Part shown: in pieces, positions 11,192 through 38,010 of the stretch
Numbering within the stretch: the first letter of the stretch is position 1
Layout of the letters: the number at the start of each line of letters is the position of its first letter
NCBI RefSeq assembly: GCF_028368935.1
Contig: NZ_JAQNDK010000005.1
Coordinates: 1,116,001-1,180,000, forward strand
DNA length: 64,000 nucleotides
Direction of reading: 5' to 3'
From: Sorangium aterium
GTDB taxonomy: Bacteria; Myxococcota_A; Polyangia; Polyangiales; Polyangiaceae
Translations under genes and position numbers: made by a program
Notes under the pieces: model-generated
Databases searched by the model: none
The model's input: only the letters and a program-made list of their open reading frames with translations
What the model was told of the DNA's origin: nothing

Positions 11192-11562
11192 ATGAAGATC
11201 ACGCACGCAATCTTCTCGATAGCGCTCGGCATCACCTCGGTCGCCTCCGTGCTCGGCGGCTCGCAGCCCGCGAGCGCCGAGCCACAGAAGGCCCCGCGGG
11301 TGGTCGAGATCATGGTCCACGGCGCCTTCGTGCCCGACAAGATCGCCGCTGTCGAGGGAGAGCGGCTGGAGCTCAGGCTCGTCGTCACGACAGCGGCGGC
11401 TGCACCAAGGAGGTCATCTTCCCGAGCCTCGGCATCCGCAAGGAGCTGCCGACCGGACAGCCAGTGACCATCGACCTCCCGGAGCTGAAGGCAGGTGAGC
11501 TGAAATTCGAGTGCGGCATGGGGATGATCAAGGGCACCATCGCTGTCGCCCCGAGGAAGTGA
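11192..11562 (+). pseudogene. Cupredoxin-domain protein, frameshifted
   Basis: It starts MKITHAIFSIALGITSVASV, a clear signal peptide, with AAAGGAG before the ATG. Up to about 11383 the first frame reads as a plastocyanin-like domain (VEIMVHGAFVPDKI). The next frame then continues it: GCTKEVIFPSLGIRKELPTG to FECGMGMIKGTIAVAPRK, ending at TGA 11560-11562. The Cys of GCTKEV and the CGMGM segment are the copper ligands expected in this family. Loss of one base in GTCGTCAC (11381-11388) explains the shift. The repaired product would be about 123 residues, periplasmic. It is either a true mutation or a sequencing error. Confidence 0.8.
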
Positions 11563-11681
11563 GCAGCGGACGGAAGCGGTCCCTGGCTGACGGTGAGCGA
11601 GCCCTCCAGCTGGCGCAAGCGCGTGCTCGCGCCAGCGCATCGGCTGCGGAGAGCGACAGCCTGGTCGGTCGGATAGATGAA

Positions 11682-11700
11682 AGTGACCGCACAGGTCACA
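11682..11700. promoter_or_regulatory. Operator AGTGACC-N5-GGTCACA upstream of csp
   Basis: A near-perfect inverted repeat, AGTGACC GCACA GGTCACA, in the 413-bp gap between the cupredoxin relic and csp. It is the same element as at 24676 and 12825, about 90 bp upstream of a sigma-54 promoter match. Probable binding site for the NtrC-type regulator. Confidence 0.6.
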
Positions 11701-11789: not shown

Positions 11790-11805
11790 TGGCACGACGC
11801 ATGCG
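11790..11805 (+). promoter_or_regulatory. Sigma-54 promoter match for csp
   Basis: TGGCACGACGCATGCG has a perfect -24 box (TGGCAC), the required GG-N10-GC spacing and a fair -12 box (ATGCG against TTGCA). Transcription would start near 11816, about 160 bases before the csp ATG. The rest of 11563-11975 shows no gene. Confidence 0.6.
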
Positions 11806-11975: not shown

Positions 11976-12371
11976 ATGGCTCACAAGGCATTCACTCTGA
12001 GCACGGCTTTCGTGAACACGGCCAGCCACGCCCAGAGCTGCGAGTCGATCTGCGTCCAGACGATCCAGTACTGCCTCCATATGGGAGGCTCGCACGCGGA
12101 GCCATCCCACATGCAGCTCATGCAGGATTGCGCCAAGATCTGCGAGACGACGGCGACGTTCCTGATGCGCGGCTCGCCGCAACACAACCAGGTCACGGCC
12201 GCGTGCGCGAGCATCTGCGAGCTCTGCGCTCAGAGCTGTGACCAGTTCACGGGTGACGCGCAGATGAAGGCCTGCGCCGACGAGTGCCGCCGCTGCGCCG
12301 CCGCGTGCAGGCAGGTCGCGCAGATGCGGCCGGGCGGGGCAGCCGGCGCGGGACACCAGAGCGTGCCCTGA
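11976..12371 (+). CDS. Four-helix-bundle copper storage protein (Csp/DUF326)
   Basis: A 131-residue protein with 13 Cys at 22, 26, 33, 52, 56, 77, 81, 84, 88, 100, 104, 107 and 111, mostly in CxxxC or CxxC steps on helices. This is the Csp pattern, in which Cys lining a four-helix bundle hold many Cu(I) ions. There is no Sec or Tat signal, so it is probably cytosolic like Csp3. GGGGGG precedes the ATG. It lies between copper pump genes and behind a sigma-54 promoter with a TGTGACC-type operator, so it should be induced with the efflux system. Confidence 0.93.
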   Translation: MAHKAFTLSTAFVNTASHAQSCESICVQTIQYCLHMGGSHAEPSHMQLMQDCAKICETTATFLMRGSPQHNQVTAACASICELCAQSCDQFTGDAQMKACADECRRCAAACRQVAQMRPGGAAGAGHQSVP

Positions 12372-12477: not shown

Positions 12478-12804
12478 AACCTCGACCTCGAGGAGGCGCT
12501 ACACATGATCCCCGTCACGGTGGTGATCGCCGCGCTGGGGCGGAGATCGCGGCCGCCGGGCCTCTTTGCGGGGCTCCTGGCCGTGCTGTACGCGCCCGTG
12601 CGGACTCTGCTCGATTTCCTCCGTATCGTCGATGTGCGCTACGCCGGCCTGACGCCCGGCCAGTACGGTGCGATCGCGCTGTTCACGGCAGGGCTCGTCC
12701 TGCTGATCCGCAGCGCTCGTGTTCAGCCGGCACCCGAGGGGGCGCGCGAGGACCTCGGCCAGCCTCGGCATTCGCCGGGGTGCGCGCTGCGGCCGTCCCG
12801 GTGA
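12478..12804 (+). pseudogene. lgt: 3' remnant of prolipoprotein diacylglyceryl transferase
   Basis: From about 12478 the frame reads NLDLEEALHMIPVTVVIAAL. FAGLLAVLYAPVRTLLDFLR and VRYAGLTPGQYGAIALF follow, which is the C-terminal part of Lgt (helix, conserved Arg and the Y-x-GLTPxQ signature). The first two thirds of Lgt, including the catalytic HGGL region, are absent. The stretch before 12478 does not look like Lgt. ATG 12505 could start a 99-residue product, but it would be inactive. Lgt homologues occur in some copper islands, which makes a former full gene here plausible. Confidence 0.7.
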
Positions 12805-12921
12805 CCCCCCCACGGTCACCGCACTGTGGCCCCAAAGGTCACAGCTCAGGAGCACCGATCGGCGCTTCGAACGACGAAAACTGATGCCGCATGACGATCG
12901 TCTGTGACCGTGGGAGGCACA
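12801..12921. promoter_or_regulatory. Cluster of three TGTGACC-type operators
   Basis: Site 1 (12801-12819) is GTGACC and GGTCAC separated by 7 bp. Site 2 (12825-12843) is TGTGGCC-CCAAA-GGTCACA. Site 3 (12903-12921) is TGTGACC-GTGGG-AGGCACA. Sites 2 and 3 keep the 5-bp spacer of the palindrome seen at 24676. All lie upstream of a sigma-54 promoter match at 13003. Confidence 0.55.
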
Positions 12922-13002
12922 ACGAGGCGGCCGCTTCGCTCCTCGACCGGGGCGATCGAACCTGGCACGGGGACTTTCGTCCTCCCGGCGGCCTTGAAGC
13001 CC

Positions 13003-13018
13003 TGGCATGGAGTTTGCG
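13003..13018 (+). promoter_or_regulatory. Sigma-54 promoter match for the astacin-like protease
   Basis: TGGCATGGAGTTTGCG matches TGGCAC-N5-TTGCA with correct GG-N10-GC spacing. The start point would be near 13029, about 35 bases before the ATG at 13064. The nearest operator ends 82 bp upstream. Confidence 0.62.
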
Positions 13019-13063
13019 CAGTCATGGGGTATTGGCCCGGATCGGCCCGAGCAAGGAGCTCAC

Positions 13064-13906
13064 ATGTTCATCCCTCCATCTATTCACGGTTCTCTCCTCC
13101 TTTTGTCAACCTCCTCCGTCCTCGCGGCGGGCTGCGTCGCCGACCCGCCGTCCGATGCGGGCGAGCCCGTCGGTGACACTTACCAGAGCTTCGATGAATG
13201 GAAGGCCAGCCTCCCGCGCGATCCGAACGACGGCGCTTATCTCGTCGACGGCGACATCGGCGTTCACGACGACGTGACCCTGAAGGAGCTCGCCGCCGAG
13301 CACCAGCAGGCGGGGGCGCTCATCGTCAACACGCGCGACGACGGGAGCGATGACCGCTGGAGCGACGAGCAGAAGATGAACCTGACGTATTGCGTCTCTC
13401 CGCGCTTCGGCGACGATTACGACGCGGTGGTCGCCGCGACGCAGTCGGCCGGGTCCGCCTGGGCGAGCGCCGCCGCCGTGCGCTTCGTCTACGAGCCCGA
13501 CCTGGACGAGGCCTGCGGGTACGACGAGCATTCCGCGCTGTTCGAGGTCGTCCCTGCCAGCGGCACCACGTACAACGGGCGAGCTTTCCTTCCGAGCATG
13601 GTCGCGCGGGGGTATCGCCAGGTCTTCATCGATCTGGAGAACATCGCTCGCTCCGCCTCGAAGACCCTGACCGGGGTCCTCCGGCACGAGCTCGGGCACG
13701 TCCTCGGCTTCCGGCACGAGCACGCACGGCCGGAGGGCAACGGCGCCTGCACAGAGCGTCCCGGTTGGCGGGCGCTCACGCCTTATGATCCGGGGTCGGT
13801 GATGCACTACAACGCGGAGAGCCGCTGCGAGGGCACCAACGGGGGCGACTACGTGCTGACCTCGCTCGACGAGGCAGGAGCGGCGGAGCTGTATGGCGAG
13901 CCTTGA
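13064..13906 (+). CDS. Secreted astacin-like zinc metalloprotease lipoprotein
   Basis: A 280-residue lipoprotein (LAAGC, Cys24) with the extended zinc motif HELGHVLGFRHEH at 208-220 and a Met-turn SVMHY at 245-249, as in astacins and related metzincins. Glu209 is the catalytic base and His208, His212 and His218 are the zinc ligands. ATG 13064 follows AAGGAGCTCAC; the upstream ATG at 13007 lies within the promoter. Its position behind TGTGACC operators and a sigma-54 promoter links it to the metal-response genes. It may process or degrade metal-damaged envelope proteins. That role is inferred; the fold call is firm. Confidence 0.9.
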   Translation: MFIPPSIHGSLLLLSTSSVLAAGCVADPPSDAGEPVGDTYQSFDEWKASLPRDPNDGAYLVDGDIGVHDDVTLKELAAEHQQAGALIVNTRDDGSDDRWSDEQKMNLTYCVSPRFGDDYDAVVAATQSAGSAWASAAAVRFVYEPDLDEACGYDEHSALFEVVPASGTTYNGRAFLPSMVARGYRQVFIDLENIARSASKTLTGVLRHELGHVLGFRHEHARPEGNGACTERPGWRALTPYDPGSVMHYNAESRCEGTNGGDYVLTSLDEAGAAELYGEP

Positions 13907-14172: not shown

Positions 14173-14814
14173 TCACTCCTTCCGCGTCCGTCCGCTCGCC
14201 GCGGCCCGCTCGTCCGCGAGGACCCGCTGCAGCAGCGCCGTGCTCTCCTCCGCCATCCGCTCCGGTGAGCACGGCATTCCCTTGTGGATCCAGCTCGTCA
14301 TCAACCGCACCAGCGCCGCCGCCGCCGCCTCGGAGCGGAGCATGAACAGGGCCCCCTCCTCCGGCGCCAGCCGCGGAGCGTACAGGCGGCAGATGCTGCC
14401 CTGAAGGATGTCCTCCAGGGAGCGCGTCAGCACCCGCTCGCTCTTCTCCGCGGACAGGAGCTTGCGCACCAGCTCGTGCATCTCGGCGAGGTGGCGGTAA
14501 AACGGCAGGAAGTCGAGCGGACGTCCCGCGTCCCGCGGGAACAGCGCCCGCAGGTGCTCGTGTCCGAACAGCAGCAGCTGCTCCTTGTTCTCGTAGTGCG
14601 AGTAGAACGTGGACCGCCCGACGTTGGCTCGATCGATGATGTCCTGGATGGACACCTCGTCATAGCCCTTCTCCAGGATCAGCGAGACCAGGGCGTCCGA
14701 GAGCAGCTTCCGGGTCTTCTGCACGCGCCGATCCGCGATCTTGCCGGCGGCCCGCCCCCTGTCGTCGCCCCCGTCCCTGTCCTCGTTTCCGGACTTTTTC
14801 GCGTTCTTGTTCAT
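14173..14814 (-). CDS. TetR/AcrR-family transcriptional regulator
   Basis: A 213-residue regulator with a basic, low-complexity leader (MNKNAKKSGNEDRDGG). A standard TetR DNA-binding domain follows, with helix-turn-helix IQDIIDRANVGRSTFYSHY. The C-terminal helical domain should bind a ligand. It is divergent from the sterol-desaturase-like gene, with only 30-85 bp between the starts, so one operator probably controls both. The 265 bp downstream (13907-14172) hold no gene I can support. Confidence 0.88.
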   Translation of the reverse strand: MNKNAKKSGNEDRDGGDDRGRAAGKIADRRVQKTRKLLSDALVSLILEKGYDEVSIQDIIDRANVGRSTFYSHYENKEQLLLFGHEHLRALFPRDAGRPLDFLPFYRHLAEMHELVRKLLSAEKSERVLTRSLEDILQGSICRLYAPRLAPEEGALFMLRSEAAAAALVRLMTSWIHKGMPCSPERMAEESTALLQRVLADERAAASGRTRKE

Positions 14815-14844
14815 TAACGTTCAATCCGCAGTCCGTGTCGCTAG

Positions 14845-15747
14845 GTGGAAGAGGCGCCCGACCTCAGCATCCATCGCATGCGAGGAACGCTGATCTGGAT
14901 GACGAGCCGCCTGCTGTACCCGCTGCTGCTGGCGGTGACCTTGTACATCATCTACGCCGCCGTGACGCAGGGCTGGGACCTGAGGCGCGCCCTGTGGGGT
15001 TACCTCTTCGGCCTGATCGTCTTGCTCATCACCGTCGAGCGCCTGCTGCCGCTGTCGCCGGACTGGGGCATGACCCGCCAGAGCTTCTGGCGCGACCTCA
15101 AGTACCTGCTGGCGTCGGGCGTCACCATCGCGATGGTGCGGACCGGCTTCGGTACCCTGGCCCTGTGGCTCAGCGAGCGGCATCAGGGCCCGCTCGCCAG
15201 CGCCTCCGTGCTCCTCAGCGTGGGGGTCTTCCTTGTGGTCTTCGAGCTGCTGCAGTACTGGTTCCATCGCCTCAGCCACGAAGGCACCGGAGCCCTGGGG
15301 CGCTTCTTGTGGAAGGTCCACCTGGCGCATCACCTTCCGGATCGCGTCTACGTGGTGATGCACGGCGTGTTTCACCCCCTCAACGCGCTCATCTCGGCGG
15401 TGCTGATCCAGTCGACCCTGCTGATCTTGGGGCTGTCTCCGCAGGCCGTCTTCGCGGCGGTGTTGCTCATCGATCTCCAGACGATGGGTTCGCACTTCAA
15501 CGTCGACATCCGCGCCGGATTCCTGAATTACGTGTTCATCGGCACCGAGCTGCACCGCTATCATCACAGCGCCGACATCGACGAGGCCCGGAACTTCGGG
15601 ACCGTACTTCCGCTGTGGGATCTGGTCTTCGGGACGTTCGTGTACCGGCCGGACGCGGCCCCGCGCCGCCTGGGCGTCGACCGCTCTGCGGGCTATCCAC
15701 CGTCGCAGCAGTTCTGGCAGGTGCTGGCCCTGCCGTTCCGACGCTGA
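14845..15747 (+). CDS. Sterol desaturase / fatty acid hydroxylase family membrane protein
   Basis: A 300-residue membrane protein with the three His boxes of the di-iron hydroxylase superfamily: HRLSH, HLAHH and HRYHH, plus HFNVD. At least four hydrophobic helices surround them. The family inserts oxygen into lipids such as sterols, carotenoids or sphingolipids. GTG 14845 gives the longest product, but ATG 14899 (MTSRLLYPLLL) has GAGGAA in front and leaves room for a promoter between this gene and the TetR gene, so it may be the true start. The substrate is unknown. It is probably not part of metal resistance. Confidence 0.86.
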   Translation: MEEAPDLSIHRMRGTLIWMTSRLLYPLLLAVTLYIIYAAVTQGWDLRRALWGYLFGLIVLLITVERLLPLSPDWGMTRQSFWRDLKYLLASGVTIAMVRTGFGTLALWLSERHQGPLASASVLLSVGVFLVVFELLQYWFHRLSHEGTGALGRFLWKVHLAHHLPDRVYVVMHGVFHPLNALISAVLIQSTLLILGLSPQAVFAAVLLIDLQTMGSHFNVDIRAGFLNYVFIGTELHRYHHSADIDEARNFGTVLPLWDLVFGTFVYRPDAAPRRLGVDRSAGYPPSQQFWQVLALPFRR

Positions 15748-19410: not shown

Positions 19411-20829
19411 TCAGGGGCTGACGACGAGCTCGCCCATCATCCCGCGCTCGGCGTGCTCGAGGATGTGGCAGTGGTACATCCAGTCACCGGGCTCGTCGAA
19501 GCGGGCCACGACCGTGGTCGTCGACAGCTGAGGCAGGATCAGCGTGTCCTTGTTGGCGAGCGCGTCGTCGGCCACGGGGACGCCGTCCCTGGCCAGGACC
19601 TGGAAGAAGAAGCCGTGCAGATGGAACGGGTGGTCCATCTCTGCGTCGTTCTTCAGATCGAAGACGTGCGTCGAGCCGCGCTCCACCTCGATCGGCGGCA
19701 CATCAGGGTAGGTGTTGCCATCGACGAGGAACTTGAGCACTCCCTGGATATACCTCTCGTCGAACGTGATCGTCGTGTCCGCCGCCCCCCCGGGCAGCCG
19801 CTCGATGGCGGGGCCCGAGTCCGGCAGCGTGCGACCGGAGAGCGCAGGTCCCTCGCCGATGCGCACCGTGGCGAGCGGCATCGGCGCCGCCTCCCCGGTG
19901 TCGTGCCCGCGCGCATAGGCCTCGTTGGTCAGGACGATCTCCGCCCCCGGCTCCCCCTGACCGATCAGGAGCACGTCGTAGCGCTCGCCCGGCGCGACCA
20001 GCAGCCGCTCGGCGTCGTAGGGCTTCGGGATCAGCCCGCCGTCGGTGCCGATCACGCGGAACGCGTGACCGGGAAGCGCGAGGTTGAAGAAGCGGCCGTT
20101 CGCGACGTTGACGATCCGGAGCCGCGTCAGCGCGCCCGGCTCGAGCTCGAGCGTGGGCATCGTCCTGCCGTTGACGAGCAGCACGTTGCCCTCGCGGCCG
20201 AGCATGATCATGTCGTCGTCGACTTCGTCGTCGAAGCTCCCGTCCTCCTTGAGGAGCGCGTCGCCCAGCACGACGATCTTCTCGTCGTCGGCCTGCGGCT
20301 CGTCCTGGCCGCGCACCCGGATCACGCCGAACAGGCCCTTCCGGATCTGCTCCTCCTCCATCACGTGTGGGTGGAACCAGAAGAAACCCGCGTCCTTCAG
20401 CTTGAATTGATAGGTGAAGGCGTCCCCGGCCGCGATCGGTCGCTGCACCGCCGGCGCGCCGTCCATGTCGTTTGGCAGCCGGATGCCGTGCCAGTGGATC
20501 GTCGTCTCCTCCGACAGGCTGTTCTTGAAGTGGACGATCAGCGTGTCGCCCACGTTCGCCTCGATCAGCGGTCCGGGGACCGTGCCGTTGTAGGCCAGGA
20601 CCGCGGTCGTCTTACCCTCGAGGAAGCTCTTCTCTGCCTCTCCTGCCTCGAGATCGACTTCCACGATCGTCGGATCGGGGTTCGTGTCCGTCACGGGCGC
20701 AGGTTCGACCCAGGCATCAGCGGGAGGGATGTCCCCCTGAGAGCCCGGGCCCTTTTCGTCAGATCCACCACAGCTGGCCGCCACGATCAGCAGCGCGGAG
20801 CTCAGCCAAACAAGAAGGGGGAACCTCAT
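19411..20829 (-). CDS. Multicopper oxidase lipoprotein
   Basis: A 472-residue exported protein with lipobox AASC (Cys20). All copper ligand clusters are present: HWHG, HPH, HPFHLHG and HCHILEH, with a downstream Met for the type 1 site. Enzymes of this type oxidise Cu(I) to Cu(II), or other metals, with O2 in the periplasm. ATG 20829 follows GAGGAG. It lies 7 bp after the partner lipoprotein gene (20837-21304) and 88 bp before the second CopA gene, so all three are probably co-transcribed. Confidence 0.94.
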   Translation of the reverse strand: MRFPLLVWLSSALLIVAASCGGSDEKGPGSQGDIPPADAWVEPAPVTDTNPDPTIVEVDLEAGEAEKSFLEGKTTAVLAYNGTVPGPLIEANVGDTLIVHFKNSLSEETTIHWHGIRLPNDMDGAPAVQRPIAAGDAFTYQFKLKDAGFFWFHPHVMEEEQIRKGLFGVIRVRGQDEPQADDEKIVVLGDALLKEDGSFDDEVDDDMIMLGREGNVLLVNGRTMPTLELEPGALTRLRIVNVANGRFFNLALPGHAFRVIGTDGGLIPKPYDAERLLVAPGERYDVLLIGQGEPGAEIVLTNEAYARGHDTGEAAPMPLATVRIGEGPALSGRTLPDSGPAIERLPGGAADTTITFDERYIQGVLKFLVDGNTYPDVPPIEVERGSTHVFDLKNDAEMDHPFHLHGFFFQVLARDGVPVADDALANKDTLILPQLSTTTVVARFDEPGDWMYHCHILEHAERGMMGELVVSP

Positions 20830-20836
20830 CGGGTGG

Positions 20837-21304
20837 CTACTCCTCGGTGGGGTTCCCGGACATCTCGTTCGAGTAGTCGGAGTAGACTTCGCCGACCTTG
20901 CAGCGGAGCCGGTAGGTGTACTCGAGATCCTCGAAGGCACCTGCGTCCATGCGGCTCGTCTTCGTACCGGCGACCGTGAAGGCAACCTCGTACTCATGCA
21001 TGGGGTCCTTGCGCTCGCCCTCGATCTCGTCGCAGGGAGCGGGCGTCGACCACTCGACGTGGAGCACGCCGTCCATCGGCATCACCATCTCGAGGACCGG
21101 CGCCTCCGGGGCCGCGGTCTCTCCCCCACCGCCGCCGGTGGCGCTCGTGCTGCCGCCCGCACCATCCATCCCGCCCATTCCACCCATCCCACCCGCCCCC
21201 GCGGTCGTGGTACTGGAAGCATCCTCCGTGCTCGAGTCACCACAGGCGGCGAGAGCAGCAGCAATACCGAGCGCAGCGAGATAAGCGAACGTAGAGCGCG
21301 CCAT
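20837..21304 (-). CDS. Lipoprotein with Met/Gly linker and fibronectin-III-like domain
   Basis: A 155-residue lipoprotein (ALAAC, Cys21). Its linker has GMGGMGGMDG, which could bind Cu(I) through Met. A C-terminal ~85-residue beta domain follows (VLEMVMPMDGVLHVEW to YTYRLRCKVGEVYSDYSNEM), similar to fibronectin type III. The ATG has CAAGGAGA in front. As first gene of the operon with the multicopper oxidase it may be an accessory or anchor for that enzyme. No named family recognised. Confidence 0.75.
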   Translation of the reverse strand: MARSTFAYLAALGIAAALAACGDSSTEDASSTTTAGAGGMGGMGGMDGAGGSTSATGGGGGETAAPEAPVLEMVMPMDGVLHVEWSTPAPCDEIEGERKDPMHEYEVAFTVAGTKTSRMDAGAFEDLEYTYRLRCKVGEVYSDYSNEMSGNPTEE

Positions 21305-21639
21305 GGTTGAGTCTCCTTGCTGTGACCGTGATTTCGATCGGAACCGCTGAAGGTATCCGATCCGGTCACATGTACAAGAGCTCCAGAGTAATCGTCCTGG
21401 TCACACCGTCGGAACGACCATGCCTCGTCCCACTGCCGGAGCGCCATACAGCCGACGTCCGGTCGCTTGATCCCAAGGCTTCTTTATGTCGCCAGCCGCT
21501 GAACTCGTAGGCGGCGTCTGGCCTGTGCGTGCTGGCATGCAGCGCTCCGCGTGACCCGCCTATGCCCTGTGGTGCCGTGGTCAGTGCTTCGGGCGCTCGT
21601 CCTGGCGGGGTGAGCCAGCGCTGCTGGACGCTGCTGAGC
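21305..21639. promoter_or_regulatory. Promoter region with three TGTGACC half-sites
   Basis: 335 bp without a gene upstream of the lipoprotein/multicopper oxidase pair. Forward-strand half-sites are TGTGACC at 21321-21327 and GGTCACA at 21364-21370 and 21399-21405. Their second arms match only about 4 of 7 bases (GGTATCC and AGTAATC). I find no sigma-54 promoter with correct spacing, so this unit may be controlled differently from the other three. Confidence 0.45.
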
Positions 21640-23058
21640 TCAGTTCTTCGTACCGTCCGCCGTGCCCCGGCGCTCCTCCCGGAAGTCATCCGCGGAGAGC
21701 CCACAGCGCCGCAGCAGCCGATAGAAGCTCTCCCGCTCCACGCCCGCGTGCGCGGCGGCCTGTGTGACGTCACCCTGGAACCGGCGCATGACGGCCTCGA
21801 GGTAGCGCCGGTTGGTCTCCTCGCGGGAGGCGTCGACCGCTTCACGGTACGAGAGCTGCGCGAGATCGACGTCGCTCGCGCTCGTCAGCTTGAGCGGGCT
21901 CGCCCCCTGTACCTCGGGCGGGAGCGACTCCAGGCGGATCTCGCCCGACGTCTCGATCACCACCGCGCGCTCCACCGCGCTCTTGAGCTCGCGCGCGTTG
22001 CCCGGCCAGCGGTAGGTCTGGAGCGCGCTCATCGCCGCCGCGGAGAAGCGCGTCGCATTGGAGCGCGACTGCGGGGCGCGCTCCGCGAGGAAGCGCTGTG
22101 CGAGGAGCGGGATGTCGTCCGCGCGCTCCCGTAGCGGGGGCAGCTCGATGACGCAGACGTTCAGGCGGAACCAGAGATCCTCGCGGAAGGCGCCCGTCTT
22201 CACCATCGCCCGGAGGTCCCGGTGCGTCGCGGCGATCAGCCGGACGTCGATCTTGCGTTCGCGCGCCTCTCCGATGCGCCGGACCGCGCGCTCCTCGAGC
22301 ACGCGCGTCAATTTCGCTTGCACGGTCGGCCTGAGCTCACCGAGCTCATCAAGAAACAGCGTGCTCCCGTGCGCCTCCTCGAAGAGCCCCGCCCGATCCG
22401 TGGCGGCGCCCGTGAACGAGCCGCGCGCGTGGCCGAACAGCTCGCTCTCGATGAGCGATCGGGGGATGGCCGCGCAGTTGACGGCAATGGGGCGGTGCGA
22501 CGCGCGGGACGAGTGCTCATGGATGGCGCGCGCCACGAGCTCCTTCCCGGTGCCCGTCTCGCCCAGGATGAGCACGGTCGCGTCCGTCGGCGCCACGCGC
22601 TCGATGAGCTGGTAGAGCGCCCGCATGGCGGGTGAACGCCCCGTCATGCCCGCAAAGCCCTGTGCGTCCTGCGCGTCCTGCGCGCCCTTCAGCACCACGG
22701 CTTGCGCCATGGCCCGCTCGACCAACGCGCGCAGCTCGTCCGGGTCGAACGGCTTCGTCACGTAGTCGTAGGCGCCCTCGCGCATGGCCTGAACCGCGGT
22801 CGGGACCGACGCATACGCGGTCATCAGGATGAAGGGCACTCCGGGCCAGCGCGCGCGCACCGCCCGGAGCACCTCGAGGCCGTCCCCGTCGTTCATGCGC
22901 AGATCGCAGACGACGGTTGTGACCGGCTCGGTTTCAAGGATCTGGAGCGCCGTTCGCACGCCCCGCGCCGTCAGGACCTTGGCGCTCTTGCCGAGCACCT
23001 TCGAGAGGAGCGCCAGCATGTTCGCCTTGTCGTCGACGACGAGCACTGTCGGCTTCAT
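21640..23058 (-). CDS. NtrC-family sigma-54-dependent response regulator
   Basis: A 472-residue activator. Its receiver domain (1-120) has phospho-acceptor Asp52 in VVCDLRM and Lys102 in TKPF. The AAA+ domain has Walker A GETGTGKE (166-173), the sigma-54 contact loop GSFTGA (213-218, Ser for the usual Ala) and Walker B LFLDELGEL. A Fis-type helix-turn-helix lies at the C terminus (DVTQAAAHAGVERESFYRLL). Its ATG overlaps the kinase stop (ATGA at 23055-23058). Similar pairs (ZraSR-like) respond to metals. It is the best candidate to bind the TGTGACC-N5-GGTCACA sites and drive the sigma-54 promoters at 11790, 13003 and 24768. Confidence 0.93.
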   Translation of the reverse strand: MKPTVLVVDDKANMLALLSKVLGKSAKVLTARGVRTALQILETEPVTTVVCDLRMNDGDGLEVLRAVRARWPGVPFILMTAYASVPTAVQAMREGAYDYVTKPFDPDELRALVERAMAQAVVLKGAQDAQDAQGFAGMTGRSPAMRALYQLIERVAPTDATVLILGETGTGKELVARAIHEHSSRASHRPIAVNCAAIPRSLIESELFGHARGSFTGAATDRAGLFEEAHGSTLFLDELGELRPTVQAKLTRVLEERAVRRIGEARERKIDVRLIAATHRDLRAMVKTGAFREDLWFRLNVCVIELPPLRERADDIPLLAQRFLAERAPQSRSNATRFSAAAMSALQTYRWPGNARELKSAVERAVVIETSGEIRLESLPPEVQGASPLKLTSASDVDLAQLSYREAVDASREETNRRYLEAVMRRFQGDVTQAAAHAGVERESFYRLLRRCGLSADDFREERRGTADGTKN

Positions 23059-24563
23059 GCGCGCTCTTGGCTCTCCCTTGCTTCTTCAATGAGGACGCCC
23101 GGCAAGTCGATCACGAACCGGGATCCGCCGCCTGATCTGGGCTCCGCCCGGATGCTCCCACCGTGTGCGGTCACCAGACCATAGCAGACCGCGAGGCCGA
23201 GGCCGGTGCCGTCGCGGCGGGTCGTGAAGAACGGCTCGAAGAGCCGCTCGCGCGCCTCCTCGCGAATACCGGCTCCCCGGTCCAGGACCTCGATCCGGTA
23301 GCCATCGTCCTGCTGCCTTCCGCGCACGACGATCTCGTCACCTTCCGAGGTTCCGGAGGTCGCCTCGCGCGCGTTGGTCACGAGGTTGACGATCACCTGC
23401 CGGATGCGGAGCGGATCCACGTTGATGAAGGACGGCTCGGCGTCCACGAGCGGGACCTGGTCGCGCCGCCCCGGCCCGCCGTCGCAGTGCGAGGCCGCGT
23501 CCCTGAGGAGCTCCTCGGCCTGCACGGGGCGCGGCGAGAGGATCGGAGAGCGCGCGTACATGAGCAGCTCCTCCGCGATCCGCTGGCAGGCCGCCGCTTC
23601 CTCGTCGAGGATCGAGAGCTCCTCGCGGAGCTCGGGCTTCTCCGCCTCCTTCGCCATCGTCTTCACGTAACCGCGGATCACGGCGATGGGGTTGTTGATC
23701 TCGTGCGCGACGCCCGCGGCGACGCGGCCGATCGCCGCGAGCCGCTCCGAGGCGACCAGCTCGGCTTCGGTGCGCGACAGCGCGTCCAGCATCCGGTTGA
23801 ACGCGTCGGCGACCGCCGCGAGCTCCGCGGCCGCCACAGGCGCGACGCGGGCGCTGCGATCTCCAGCGGTGACGCGCACGGCGACGCGCTCGAGCGAGGA
23901 GAGCGGGGTGGAGAAAGAGCGCCAGAGCTTGCGCCCGGCGATCAAGGCGAGCGCCGCGGCGAGCGCGCAGACGGCCGTCGCGAGGATCAAAGCGAACCGG
24001 ATGAACTGCTCGGCCCGGCGCTCCGCGGCCATGGCGCGCTCGTCGAAGTGAAGCGCCAGGCTGTCCGCATGCTCCGTCATCCGATCGACGAGCGCGTTCG
24101 CGCGGTCGTGCGCGTGGTGAACCTCGTGCCAGTCCTGCCGATCGATGGCGGGGAGGATGGCCGTGGAGAAGAGCTGGCTGAGCTCGCGGCTCGTCTTCCC
24201 GATATCGTCGAGCTTCGTGGCCGTCTCGGCGTCGAGGCCGGGGCGTAGCTCGGCGAGCGTCGCGCCGAGCTCGCTCACCCAGGCGTCGTGGTGCGCGACG
24301 TGGGACCGGTCGCGCAGGATGATCGTGTGGGCCTCGTGGATGTACTGCTCGCGCGCGGTGACGCTGAGGAGCGCAGCCCGGCGGGAGGCCACCTCGAGGT
24401 CGTGGGCCTCCAGGATCGCGCGACGGGACGCGAGGCCCGTGAGCACGGTGGCGACGCCGCTCACGGCGACCAAGGCGACGAGGAGGCTGATGACCAGGAG
24501 CAGCCGGCGGCGGAGTCGGTAAGGGCGCTGTGGAGTGGGAGGCGGAGCCATGGACGGGCGCAT
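23055..24563 (-). CDS. Membrane sensor histidine kinase with His-rich periplasmic domain
   Basis: A 502-residue kinase. Transmembrane helices at about 19-43 and 188-210 flank a ~145-residue helical periplasmic domain with at least eleven His (76, 79, 88, 91, 92, 146, 149, 150, 152, 165, 172), including HEVHHAHD. HAMP follows (210-262), then HisKA with His287 in AHEINNP, and a HATPase domain with the N box and TGLGL. The His-rich sensor suggests direct metal binding. ATG 24563 or 24551 may start it. It is coupled to the response regulator and divergent from the efflux operon. Confidence 0.92.
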   Translation of the reverse strand: MRPSMAPPPTPQRPYRLRRRLLLVISLLVALVAVSGVATVLTGLASRRAILEAHDLEVASRRAALLSVTAREQYIHEAHTIILRDRSHVAHHDAWVSELGATLAELRPGLDAETATKLDDIGKTSRELSQLFSTAILPAIDRQDWHEVHHAHDRANALVDRMTEHADSLALHFDERAMAAERRAEQFIRFALILATAVCALAAALALIAGRKLWRSFSTPLSSLERVAVRVTAGDRSARVAPVAAAELAAVADAFNRMLDALSRTEAELVASERLAAIGRVAAGVAHEINNPIAVIRGYVKTMAKEAEKPELREELSILDEEAAACQRIAEELLMYARSPILSPRPVQAEELLRDAASHCDGGPGRRDQVPLVDAEPSFINVDPLRIRQVIVNLVTNAREATSGTSEGDEIVVRGRQQDDGYRIEVLDRGAGIREEARERLFEPFFTTRRDGTGLGLAVCYGLVTAHGGSIRAEPRSGGGSRFVIDLPGVLIEEARESQERA

Positions 24564-24675: not shown

Positions 24676-24717
24676 TGTGACCGATGCGGTCACAAGATCG
24701 TGACCGTCGAGGTCACC
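24676..24717. promoter_or_regulatory. Two adjacent TGTGACC-N5-GGTCACA operators
   Basis: Site A (24676-24694) is TGTGACC-GATGC-GGTCACA, a perfect palindrome. Site B (24699-24717) is CGTGACC-GTCGA-GGTCACC, perfect over 7-5-7 except for the central bases. Centres are 23 bp apart, about two helical turns. They lie between the kinase gene and the efflux operon, 51-92 bp upstream of a sigma-54 promoter. Confidence 0.72.
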
Positions 24718-24767: not shown

Positions 24768-24783
24768 TGGCGCGCTCATTGCT
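24768..24783 (+). promoter_or_regulatory. Sigma-54 promoter match for the efflux operon
   Basis: TGGCGCGCTCATTGCT differs from TGGCAC-N5-TTGCT at one base and has exact GG-N10-GC spacing. Transcription would start near 24794, about 37 bases before the lipoprotein ATG at 24831. Confidence 0.68.
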
Positions 24784-28890: not shown

Positions 28891-31800
28891 ATGTTCGACT
28901 ACCTCATCCGCTTCTCCCTCAGGAACCGCCTCTTCGTCATCGCCGCGGCGGCGCTGGTGCTCGTCTACGGGACGTACTCGCTCCTGAAGCTCCCGATCGA
29001 CGTTTTTCCTGATCTGAATCGGCCGACGGTCACCCTCATGACCGAGGCTCCCGGGCTGGCGCCCGAGGAGGTGGAGACGCTGGTCACGGTGCCCCTCGAG
29101 CGGGTGATGAACGGCGCGCCCGGGGTCGAGCGCGTGCGCTCTACCTCGGGCGTCGGCCTGAGCGTCGTGTACGTCGAGTTCGACTGGTCCACGGACATCT
29201 ACCGCGACCGACAGCTCGTCGCCGAGCGCCTTGCCACGGTGACGGAGCAGCTCCCGAAGGGCGTCACGCCGCAGATGGGGCCCGTCGCCTCGATCATGGG
29301 GGAGATCCTGCTGATCGGGGTGCAGGGCGATGGGGCCTCGCCCATGACCCTCCGGACCCAGGCCGACTGGGTGATCCGGCCGCGGCTGCTCACGATCCCG
29401 GGGGTCGCGCAGGTGATCCCCATCGGCGGCGAGGTCCGCCAGATCCAGGTCACCGTCGACCCGGCCAAGCTCGCGGCCGCGGCGGTGTCGCTCGACGAGA
29501 TCTCGCGCGCCCTGACCGGCGCGAACGCCAACACCACCGGCGGTTACGTCGACCGGCGGGGGCTGGAGTTCCTCGTGCGGACGCTGGGCCGCGCCCGGAC
29601 CGAAGCGGACATCGCCGCGACCGTCATCGCCCTGCGGAACGGGACGCCGGTGACCCTGGCGCAGGTCGCCACGGTGAAAGCGGCCGCGCGCATCAAGCGC
29701 GGCGACGGGTCGATCGACGGCAAGCCCGCCGTGATCCTCTCGGTGCAGAAGCAGCCGGGAGCCGACACCGTCGCGCTCACCGGCAGCATCGACAAGGCCG
29801 TCGCCGAGCTGCAGAGGTCGATGCCCGCGGGCGTCACCATCAACCCGCACCTCTTCCGGCAGGCAACCTTCATCCAGGGCGCGGTCCACAACGTGGTCGA
29901 GGCGCTGCGCGACGGCGCGATCCTGGTCACGATCGTCCTCTTCCTGTTCCTGCTCAACTTCCGGACGACCGCGATCACGCTGACCGCCATCCCGCTCTCG
30001 TTCATCGTGAGCGCGCTCGTGTTCCGGGCCTTCGGCCTGTCGGTCAACACGATGACGCTGGGCGGTCTCGCGGTGGCGATCGGCGAGCTCGTCGACGACG
30101 CCATCGTGGACGTGGAGAACGTGTTCCGGCGCCTGCGCGAGAACAGGGCGCTCGCCTCGCCGCGGCCGGCGATGGACGTCATCCGCGACGCGTCGAGCGA
30201 GGTCCGGAGCTCCATCGTCTTCGCGACGATCCTGGTGGTCCTGGTCTTCGTTCCCCTGTTCGCCATGAGCGGCATCGAGGGGCGGCTCTTCGCTCCGCTC
30301 GGGATCGCCTACATCGTGTCGATCCTTGCATCGCTGGTTGTATCCCTGACGGTCACTCCCGCGCTCTGCTCCTATCTCTTGCCGTCCATGAAGCGCATGA
30401 GCCACGAGGACGGCTGGCTGGTGCGCAAGCTCAAGGCCGCGGACCGGCGCGTGCTCGCGGCGTCGCTGCGGCACCCCGGGGCCGTGACGGCGGCGGCAGG
30501 CGCGCTGGTCCTCGCCGCCGCGGCGACGGTGCCGTTCCTGGGCGGCGAGTTCCTCCCGCCGTTCAACGAGGGGACGCTCACAGTGAACGTCGTCGCCAGG
30601 CCGGGCACGTCGCTCGCCGAGTCGAGTCGCCTCGGCTCGCTCGCCGAGCAGCTGATCCACGAGGTCCCCGAGGTCATGTCGACCGGGCGGCGGACCGGCC
30701 GAGCCGAGCTGGACGAGCACGCGGAGGGAGTCCACTACAGCGAAATCGATGTCGACCTCAGGGCGTCCGAGCGTGAGCGGGAGGCGATCCTCGGCGACAT
30801 CCGCGACCAGCTCGACAAGATCCCCGGCGTTGCGATCAACGTGGGCCAGCCGATCTCGCACCGGCTCGACCACCTGCTCTCGGGCGTCCGTGCACAGGTG
30901 GCCGTGAAGATCTTCGGCGAGGATCTCGGCGAGCTGCGGCGCCTCGGGAAGGCGGCGCGCGACGCGATGCAGGGCGTCGCCGGGGTGAAGGACCTGCAGA
31001 TCGAGCAGCAGGTGCTCATCCCGCAGATCGCCATCAAGGTGAACCGAGAGCGCGCGGCGCAGCTCGGGGTCAACGCGGGTCAGCTCTCGGAGATGCTCGA
31101 GCTCGCCCTCGCGGGCGGTACCGTCACACAGCTTCTGGAGGGGCAGCGGACCATCGATGTGGTGCTCCGGTACCCGCCGGAGCTCCGCGAGGACATCGAC
31201 GCCTTGCGGCGCACGCTCGTCGATACGCCCAGCGGCGCGAAGGTGCCGCTGGCCGACCTCGCCGACGTGACGGAGAGCATGGGGCCGAACCAGATCAGCC
31301 GCGACGACACGCAGCGTCGCATCGTGGTCTCGGCCAACGTGGCGGGGCGCGATCTGGAGCAAGTCGTGAGCAATATCCAGCGCGCCGTGGACGCGATCCC
31401 GAAGCCGCCGGGCTACTACGCGACGTACGGCGGGCAGTTCGAGAGCCAGCGCTCGGCGTCGCGACTGATCGGATGGCTCTCGATCGCGAGCCTCGCCGGC
31501 ATGCTCGTGGTCCTCTACTCCCAGTTCCGCTCGTGGACCGTGGCCCTCCAGATCCTCCTGAACATCCCGCTCGCTCTGGTCGGCTCGGTGCTCGCCGTCG
31601 TGCTCACCGGCGGGGTCCTTTCGGTCGCGACCCTCGTCGGGTTCATCACGCTGTGCGGCATCGCCTCGCGCAACGGCATCATGATGATCTCGCACTACAT
31701 CCACCTCATGAAGGAAGAGGGCGAGTCGTTCGGTGAGGCGATGATCGTCCGCGGCTCCCTGGAACGCCTCGTTCCGGTGCTGATGACCGCGCTCACCGCC

Positions 31801-32079
31801 GCCCTGGCGCTCGTGCCCATCGCGCTCTCCAAGGGCCAGCCGGGCAAGGAGATCCTGCAGCCCGTCGCGGTGGTGATCCTCGGTGGCCTGCTCTCGTCGA
31901 CGCTGCTCGACATCGTCGTCACGCCGGCGGTGTTCCTGAAGTTCGGCCGCAGCTCCGCTGAGCGTCTGGCGCGCGCCCGGGACAGCGCGGGCGGCGCCCA
32001 GGCCGACCTCGCCGGTGCGGCGCCCGATGAATGCGGGAGTGTCGCCCGGGAGCATGGGGCCTGCGCCGGAGCGCCTTGA
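28891..32079 (+). CDS. Heavy-metal RND efflux pump, CusA/CzcA family
   Basis: A full-length 1062-residue proton/metal antiporter with twelve expected helices and two periplasmic porter loops. It begins [17 protein letters not shown], usual for HME-RND pumps. Helix IV carries the charged set [13 protein letters not shown] (two Asp and Glu), needed for proton coupling. [19 protein letters not shown] and [18 protein letters not shown] mark the C-terminal half. The last ~35 residues after [13 protein letters not shown] are low-complexity. Together with the adaptor and outer-membrane factor genes it makes a complete tripartite system. Copper/silver or zinc/cobalt/nickel remain possible. Confidence 0.95.
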
Positions 32080-37602: not shown

Positions 37603-38010
37603 GGTACCCTCTCCTCCGCGCTCGACCACGCCCAGCGGCTCTGCCCCCTCGGCGCGCCCGGCGGTTTCTCGACGACTCTCTGCGCTGGCTTCGAGCTGTC
37701 TCGTCCAGCTCCCAGCTTCATCCTGCCTTCAGTCAACGATGTCCGTTGGCCATGTTGGTCAGCAATGCCCGGGCCAAACCGCGCCGAGCGCCCGCGCGTG
37801 CTCCTCGTCACCACATCCTCGGATCCCGGGGATCGCTCCCCCTGAGACACATCGCCTCGACCGTGGCGTCCTGCGACGCGCGTTGGCCGCCCGCCAGGGA
37901 TCCCCGGGCGGGAGGGGGCCCGCGGCGCAGGGGAGGCCCCGCCTCGCGACGCTGGCGCCTCCGCTTGGCCTCCGCGGCGATCGGAGCAAGAATCCGCCCG
38001 GAACCGCGAC
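37603..38010. other. 408-bp intergenic region, divergent promoters
   Basis: This separates the small lipoprotein (minus) from the TPR-like gene (plus). I see no additional gene, no long repeat and no convincing promoter box. The left part near 37700-37800 is slightly less GC-rich. Confidence 0.5.

Follow-up and report, generated by a model that had tools for sequence, protein, structure and literature searches.

A surface metalloprotease gene as a probable target of a sigma-54 two-component system in a Sorangium copper island

A lipoprotein zinc metalloprotease gene in a copper island of Sorangium aterium is quite likely a target of the sigma-54 two-component system encoded nearby, and would represent a member of a sigma-54-driven family of secreted proteases that has been recruited into a copper regulon. 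In the proposed mechanism, a kinase (23055-24563 of the window, the 64,000-nucleotide stretch of DNA analyzed here) would sense excess metal, most likely copper, and phosphorylate an NtrC-type regulator (21640-23058), which would bind GTGACC-N5-GGTCAC sites ahead of the protease gene, thereby activating RNA polymerase-sigma-54 at a promoter at 13003. The protease would be exported as a lipoprotein zymogen, with Asp64 keeping it inactive, and cleavage of the pro-segment would convert it into an active zinc endopeptidase at the cell surface. Sorangium thus conceived probably makes the protease on meeting excess copper. A first-pass annotation of this DNA had tied the protease to a metal-response circuit, and this predicted wiring is well supported by a rare operator shared with other units of the island, a sigma-54 promoter lying 3' of the operator copies, and the fact that both are conserved in the second strain So0008-312; copper as the signal and binding of the regulator to the operator are inferences. 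If correct, the reach of a copper regulon would extend beyond pumps, oxidases, and storage proteins to a secreted protease, and one could directly test whether extracellular proteolysis under copper serves stress repair or prey digestion.

The presumed operator-binding protein is a sigma-54-dependent response regulator of NtrC type (receiver, AAA+, and Fis-type HTH domains; minus strand), encoded beside a membrane sensor histidine kinase (HAMP, HisKA, and HATPase domains; minus strand). Two perfect operators (24677..24716) lie between the kinase/regulator and efflux operons, and the efflux operon, which includes a CusA/CzcA-family heavy-metal RND pump (28891..32079, plus strand), is also preceded by a sigma-54 site with one mismatch, TGGCGCGCTCATTGCT (24768..24783, plus strand), 52 and 75 bp from the operators. 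Orthologues of the kinase and regulator in S. cellulosum So0157-2 (G004, NC_021658.1) and in genome G002 each adjoin two perfect operators, the same pair 23 bp apart, and the 52/75-bp spacing to the sigma-54 site is identical in these two genomes and our own, three in all. A further perfect operator (11683..11699, plus strand) stands upstream of a copper-storage-protein (Csp1)-like gene (11976..12371, plus strand; TIGR04401 match, below cut-off), where a weaker sigma-54-like site at 11790 has two mismatches and is not conserved in G004. Two degenerate operators with two mismatches each (21353..21404, minus strand) are found upstream of the multicopper-oxidase unit (oxidase at 19411..20997, minus strand), in which no clear sigma-54 site was detected. 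Further operators in So0157-2 stand before genes for a Cus-type pump and a DUF305 lipoprotein and before the Csp-like gene, and a one-mismatch operator (L078, 9579) is located immediately 5' of the frame preceding the oxidase. The genome encodes many other NtrC-type regulators, which counts against assignment of the sites to the local one.

The common operator, GTGACC-N5-GGTCAC, is rare. Perfect N5 copies were found three times in the window (11683, 24677, and 24700) versus none in 20 shuffled windows, and seven times in the whole genome (13.47 Mb), for which the reversed control gave none. The three copies in the window precede copper/efflux genes and the CorSR-like two-component system, and the four outside it fall inside long high-GC3 reading frames with no sigma-54 site nearby. 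Among 377 Myxococcota genomes, a sample that excluded the pair-bearing G002 and G004, paired perfect operators were detected only in our own genome and in G206, where the site falls inside open frames. Upstream of the protease, the three operators reported earlier are all present (plus strand), but imperfect: the first (12801..12819) has perfect half-sites around a 7-bp spacer (5-bp in So0008-312), and the second (12826..12842) and third (12904..12920) keep the N5 spacer with one and two mismatches, respectively. The off-register spacer and these mismatches count against membership of the regulon. It is formally true, as had been proposed, that no other unit has as many operators, since the Csp-like gene has one, the divergent efflux/kinase promoter two perfect copies, and the oxidase unit two degenerate copies plus a half-site. 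No operators were found upstream of the protease paralogues of the same genome, and before the other homologues no site with zero or one mismatch was detected outside So0008-312, only scattered two-mismatch sites.

The claimed sigma-54 match before the protease ATG holds up: TGGCATGGAGTTTGCG (13003..13018, plus strand) is near-consensus with one mismatch, lies 45 bases before the start codon, and is kept in So0008-312 as TGGCACGGCGCTTGCG. Matches to the sigma-54 pattern with up to two mismatches number 12 in the window against 12.6 expected, so the consensus by itself is at chance level and support for the promoter comes from its position and conservation. The S. cellulosum So0008-312 draft (G005, NZ_JEMA01000351.1, L053/L082) encodes a protease orthologue, 87% identical, preceded by three N5 operators (1, 0, and 2 mismatches) and the sigma-54 site, all in register with the window. 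Between the two strains, 5/36 half-site bases have changed versus 10/17 spacer bases (Fisher p=0.002) and 30/227 flanking bases. Such a pattern would be expected of maintained binding sites, although conservation of the half-sites does not exceed that of the flanks overall and stands out only against the spacers that they enclose. In the promoter, 0/9 fixed letters have changed, the three differences being limited to degenerate positions. Against the wiring, no intact kinase or regulator was found in So0008-312, a fragmented draft, in which 91 codons are all that is left of the regulator gene, and in So0157-2 the regulator is present but the island lacks the protease. Together, these two strains suggest that the protease and the regulator are separable modules of a shuffled island. 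In a Minicystis orthologue (64%), neither operators, a sigma-54 site, nor copper genes were found.

The regulatory pair resembles CorSR of the M. xanthus curA regulon in domain make-up, as this system likewise combines a HAMP-HisKA kinase with a receiver-sigma-54-activation-HTH_8 regulator; CorSR controls a multicopper oxidase, a CopA ATPase, and lipoproteins, in a cluster with putative sigma-54 promoters (PMC3707914). A DUF305 lipoprotein is common to that regulon and the So0157-2 island, whereas, in the parts of the published account drawn on here, the curA gene list names no such protease and no CorR operator is reported, unlike in Sorangium (PMC3707914). In the window, the CorSR-like features are the kinase and NtrC-type regulator beside copper genes and the sigma-54 promoters at 13003 and 24768. 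The NCBIfam models ZraS and ZraR, named for the E. coli ZraSR system, also match the kinase and regulator, but at 150 and 384 bits they stay far under their curated cut-offs of 479 and 760 bits, respectively, and are outscored by the AtoS/AtoC models. ZraSR is a sigma-54-dependent metal response whose target is the periplasmic chaperone ZraP, not a protease.

Homologues of the protease were compared at 80 loci from Myxococcota, Actinobacteria, and a few other groups, with neighborhoods taken within 10 kb. Close relatives of the copper genes of the window are absent at 79/80 of these loci and present only at So0008-312, with RND pumps (~30% identical) at three loci and a generic NtrC-type regulator at two; a recurrent copper neighborhood of the family was therefore rejected. 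A strict sigma-54 site was found upstream of 18/49 Myxococcota homologues versus ~0.02 expected, although the 18 include many closely related homologues (from Corallococcus and Myxococcus) and do not represent 18 independent events, and upstream of 0/26 actinobacterial homologues, which serve as a natural control. Actinobacteria generally lack sigma-54. It appears from these counts that sigma-54 control is a habit of this dispersed, multi-copy, secreted family in the phylum, and that the copper operators are a Sorangium addition. The putative sigma-54 promoter of the protease is not copper-specific, whereas two Sorangium strains were the only ones in which the predicted wiring to copper was detected. 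Since sigma-54 promoters recur before its Myxococcota members, a broad bacterial metzincin family would gain a regulatory handle if this reading is right. Near-consensus sigma-54 sites were observed ~55-125 bases 5' of many myxobacterial homologues with no copper context (L092, L096, L098, L102, L109, L122, L125, L127, and others).

The protease gene itself (13064..13906, plus strand; ATG at 13064, stop at 13906, 280 aa) has an AAGGAG ribosome site 5' of its ATG and encodes a metzincin with an N-terminal lipoprotein signal (lipobox LAAG-C24) and intact active-site motifs, with HELGHVLGFRHE as its zinc helix and SVMHY as its Met-turn. Its pro-segment contains G63-D64, which is nearly invariant among homologues and resembles the aspartate-switch motif FEGDI; myroilysin, in contrast, has a cysteine switch where the Sorangium protease has this G-D motif (PMC9629494). 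Latency through an Asp64 switch, surface location, and substrate are predictions for this enzyme. The active-site helix agrees with the earlier description of the enzyme as astacin-like, but in its predicted fold it is at least as matrixin-like. The Pfam Astacin model (PF01400) matches (E=1.1e-7, 32.1 bits versus a cut-off of 22.5) over residues 203-224 only, and the astacin zinc motif HExxHxxGxxHE followed by R, with the Met-turn SxMHY, is present as HELGHVLGFRHEHARPE and SVMHY, a core invariant in 32 homologues. The matrixin model PF00413 did not reach its Pfam cut-off (20.8 versus 24 bits), the M57 Pfam model scored just under its own, and LegP, the sole NCBIfam match, was discarded as far under its cut-off. 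In the structure model (mean pLDDT 75), residues 86-280 superpose on the matrixin karilysin with Z 16.2 (rmsd 2.6, 150 aligned), and on other matrixins too, versus Z 14.5 (rmsd 3.6, 166 aligned) for the astacin myroilysin, which suggests that the fold fits matrixins at least as well as astacins. Astacins and karilysin have the zinc helix HExxHxxGFxHE and the Met-turn SVMHY in common with the Sorangium protease, which differs from them in being a lipoprotein, and its sequence similarity to solved astacins is mainly limited to the zinc helix.

Two readings of what the protease is for can hold together with the regulatory claim, and their likelihoods are therefore not to be added to it. Tentatively, it could be that copper rises where predator meets prey and that the regulon induces a surface protease digesting released prey protein. 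Copper accumulates in the contact zone between M. xanthus and S. meliloti, inducing copA, cuoA, and cus2 (PMC7010606), M. xanthus has extracellular and vesicle metalloproteases, with an M10A/M12A peptidase in vesicles (PMC4158809), and peptidases are up-regulated by predation (PMC9548883). However, these facts all come from Myxococcus, nothing ties the Sorangium protease to predation, and only two Sorangium strains were seen to have the predicted wiring to copper. The extended claim that copper is a prey-contact signal in Sorangium itself, through which the two-component system induces a surface digestive protease and couples metal defense to feeding, is improbable as it stands. Slightly more doubtful than the digestion reading, and including the regulatory half of the favored explanation, is envelope quality control, in which copper-damaged envelope proteins would be degraded by the induced lipoprotein protease, like DegP in Cpx-type responses. 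The lipoprotein signal, the intact active site, and the predicted co-regulation with copper detoxification genes are consistent with it, but homologues were not found beside copper or envelope-stress genes, similar sigma-54 promoters occur at homologues lacking a copper context, and a multi-copy, dispersed family suits a secreted hydrolase rather than a housekeeping enzyme. For these reasons, the earlier suggestion that the enzyme clears metal-misfolded envelope proteins found no direct support. Digestion at copper-rich prey contact and envelope clearing are equally possible purposes.

Other readings question the wiring itself. The protease operators could be decaying or incidental after shuffling of the island, the gene being driven by sigma-54 with another regulator, or silent. 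The mismatched sites and the uneven spacer seen in the window, the loss of the regulator in So0008-312, the recent rearrangement shown by the neighboring truncated lgt, and the abundance of NtrC-type regulators all point that way, but the motif is rare and the three sites have stayed in register although their spacers diverged, and we regard this outcome as unlikely. Random operator and promoter matches in GC-rich DNA would account for the chance-level sigma-54 count, but hardly for perfect operators never seen in shuffled windows or a register conserved in a second strain, and this explanation can be set aside as very improbable.

Several observations concern the surroundings of the gene. The accessory lgt remnant directly upstream of the protease (12505..12804, plus strand) is the C-terminal third of a prolipoprotein diacylglyceryl transferase gene, of which only about the last 111 codons are left, 81% identical to So0008-312 lgt; there, a full-length lgt (303 aa; L053, 5521-6432) precedes the lipoprotein protease. 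The So0008-312 island at L053 (G005:C349) appears scrambled, with CopA, Csp, and regulator fragments beside the intact protease, which may be a draft-assembly artefact. A small secreted cupredoxin-like protein (11192-11569) apparently carries a frameshift that divides it in two: the frame as called ends at 11467, and similar coding seems, as judged by eye, to continue to ~11560 in another frame. A sigma-54-like site with one mismatch, TGGCCCGGGCATTGCT (37761-37776, minus strand), has no perfect operator nearby. Finally, a TetR regulator and fatty-acid hydroxylase pair (14173-15747) shows ~95-96% DNA conservation inside the copper islands of both So0008-312 and So0157-2.
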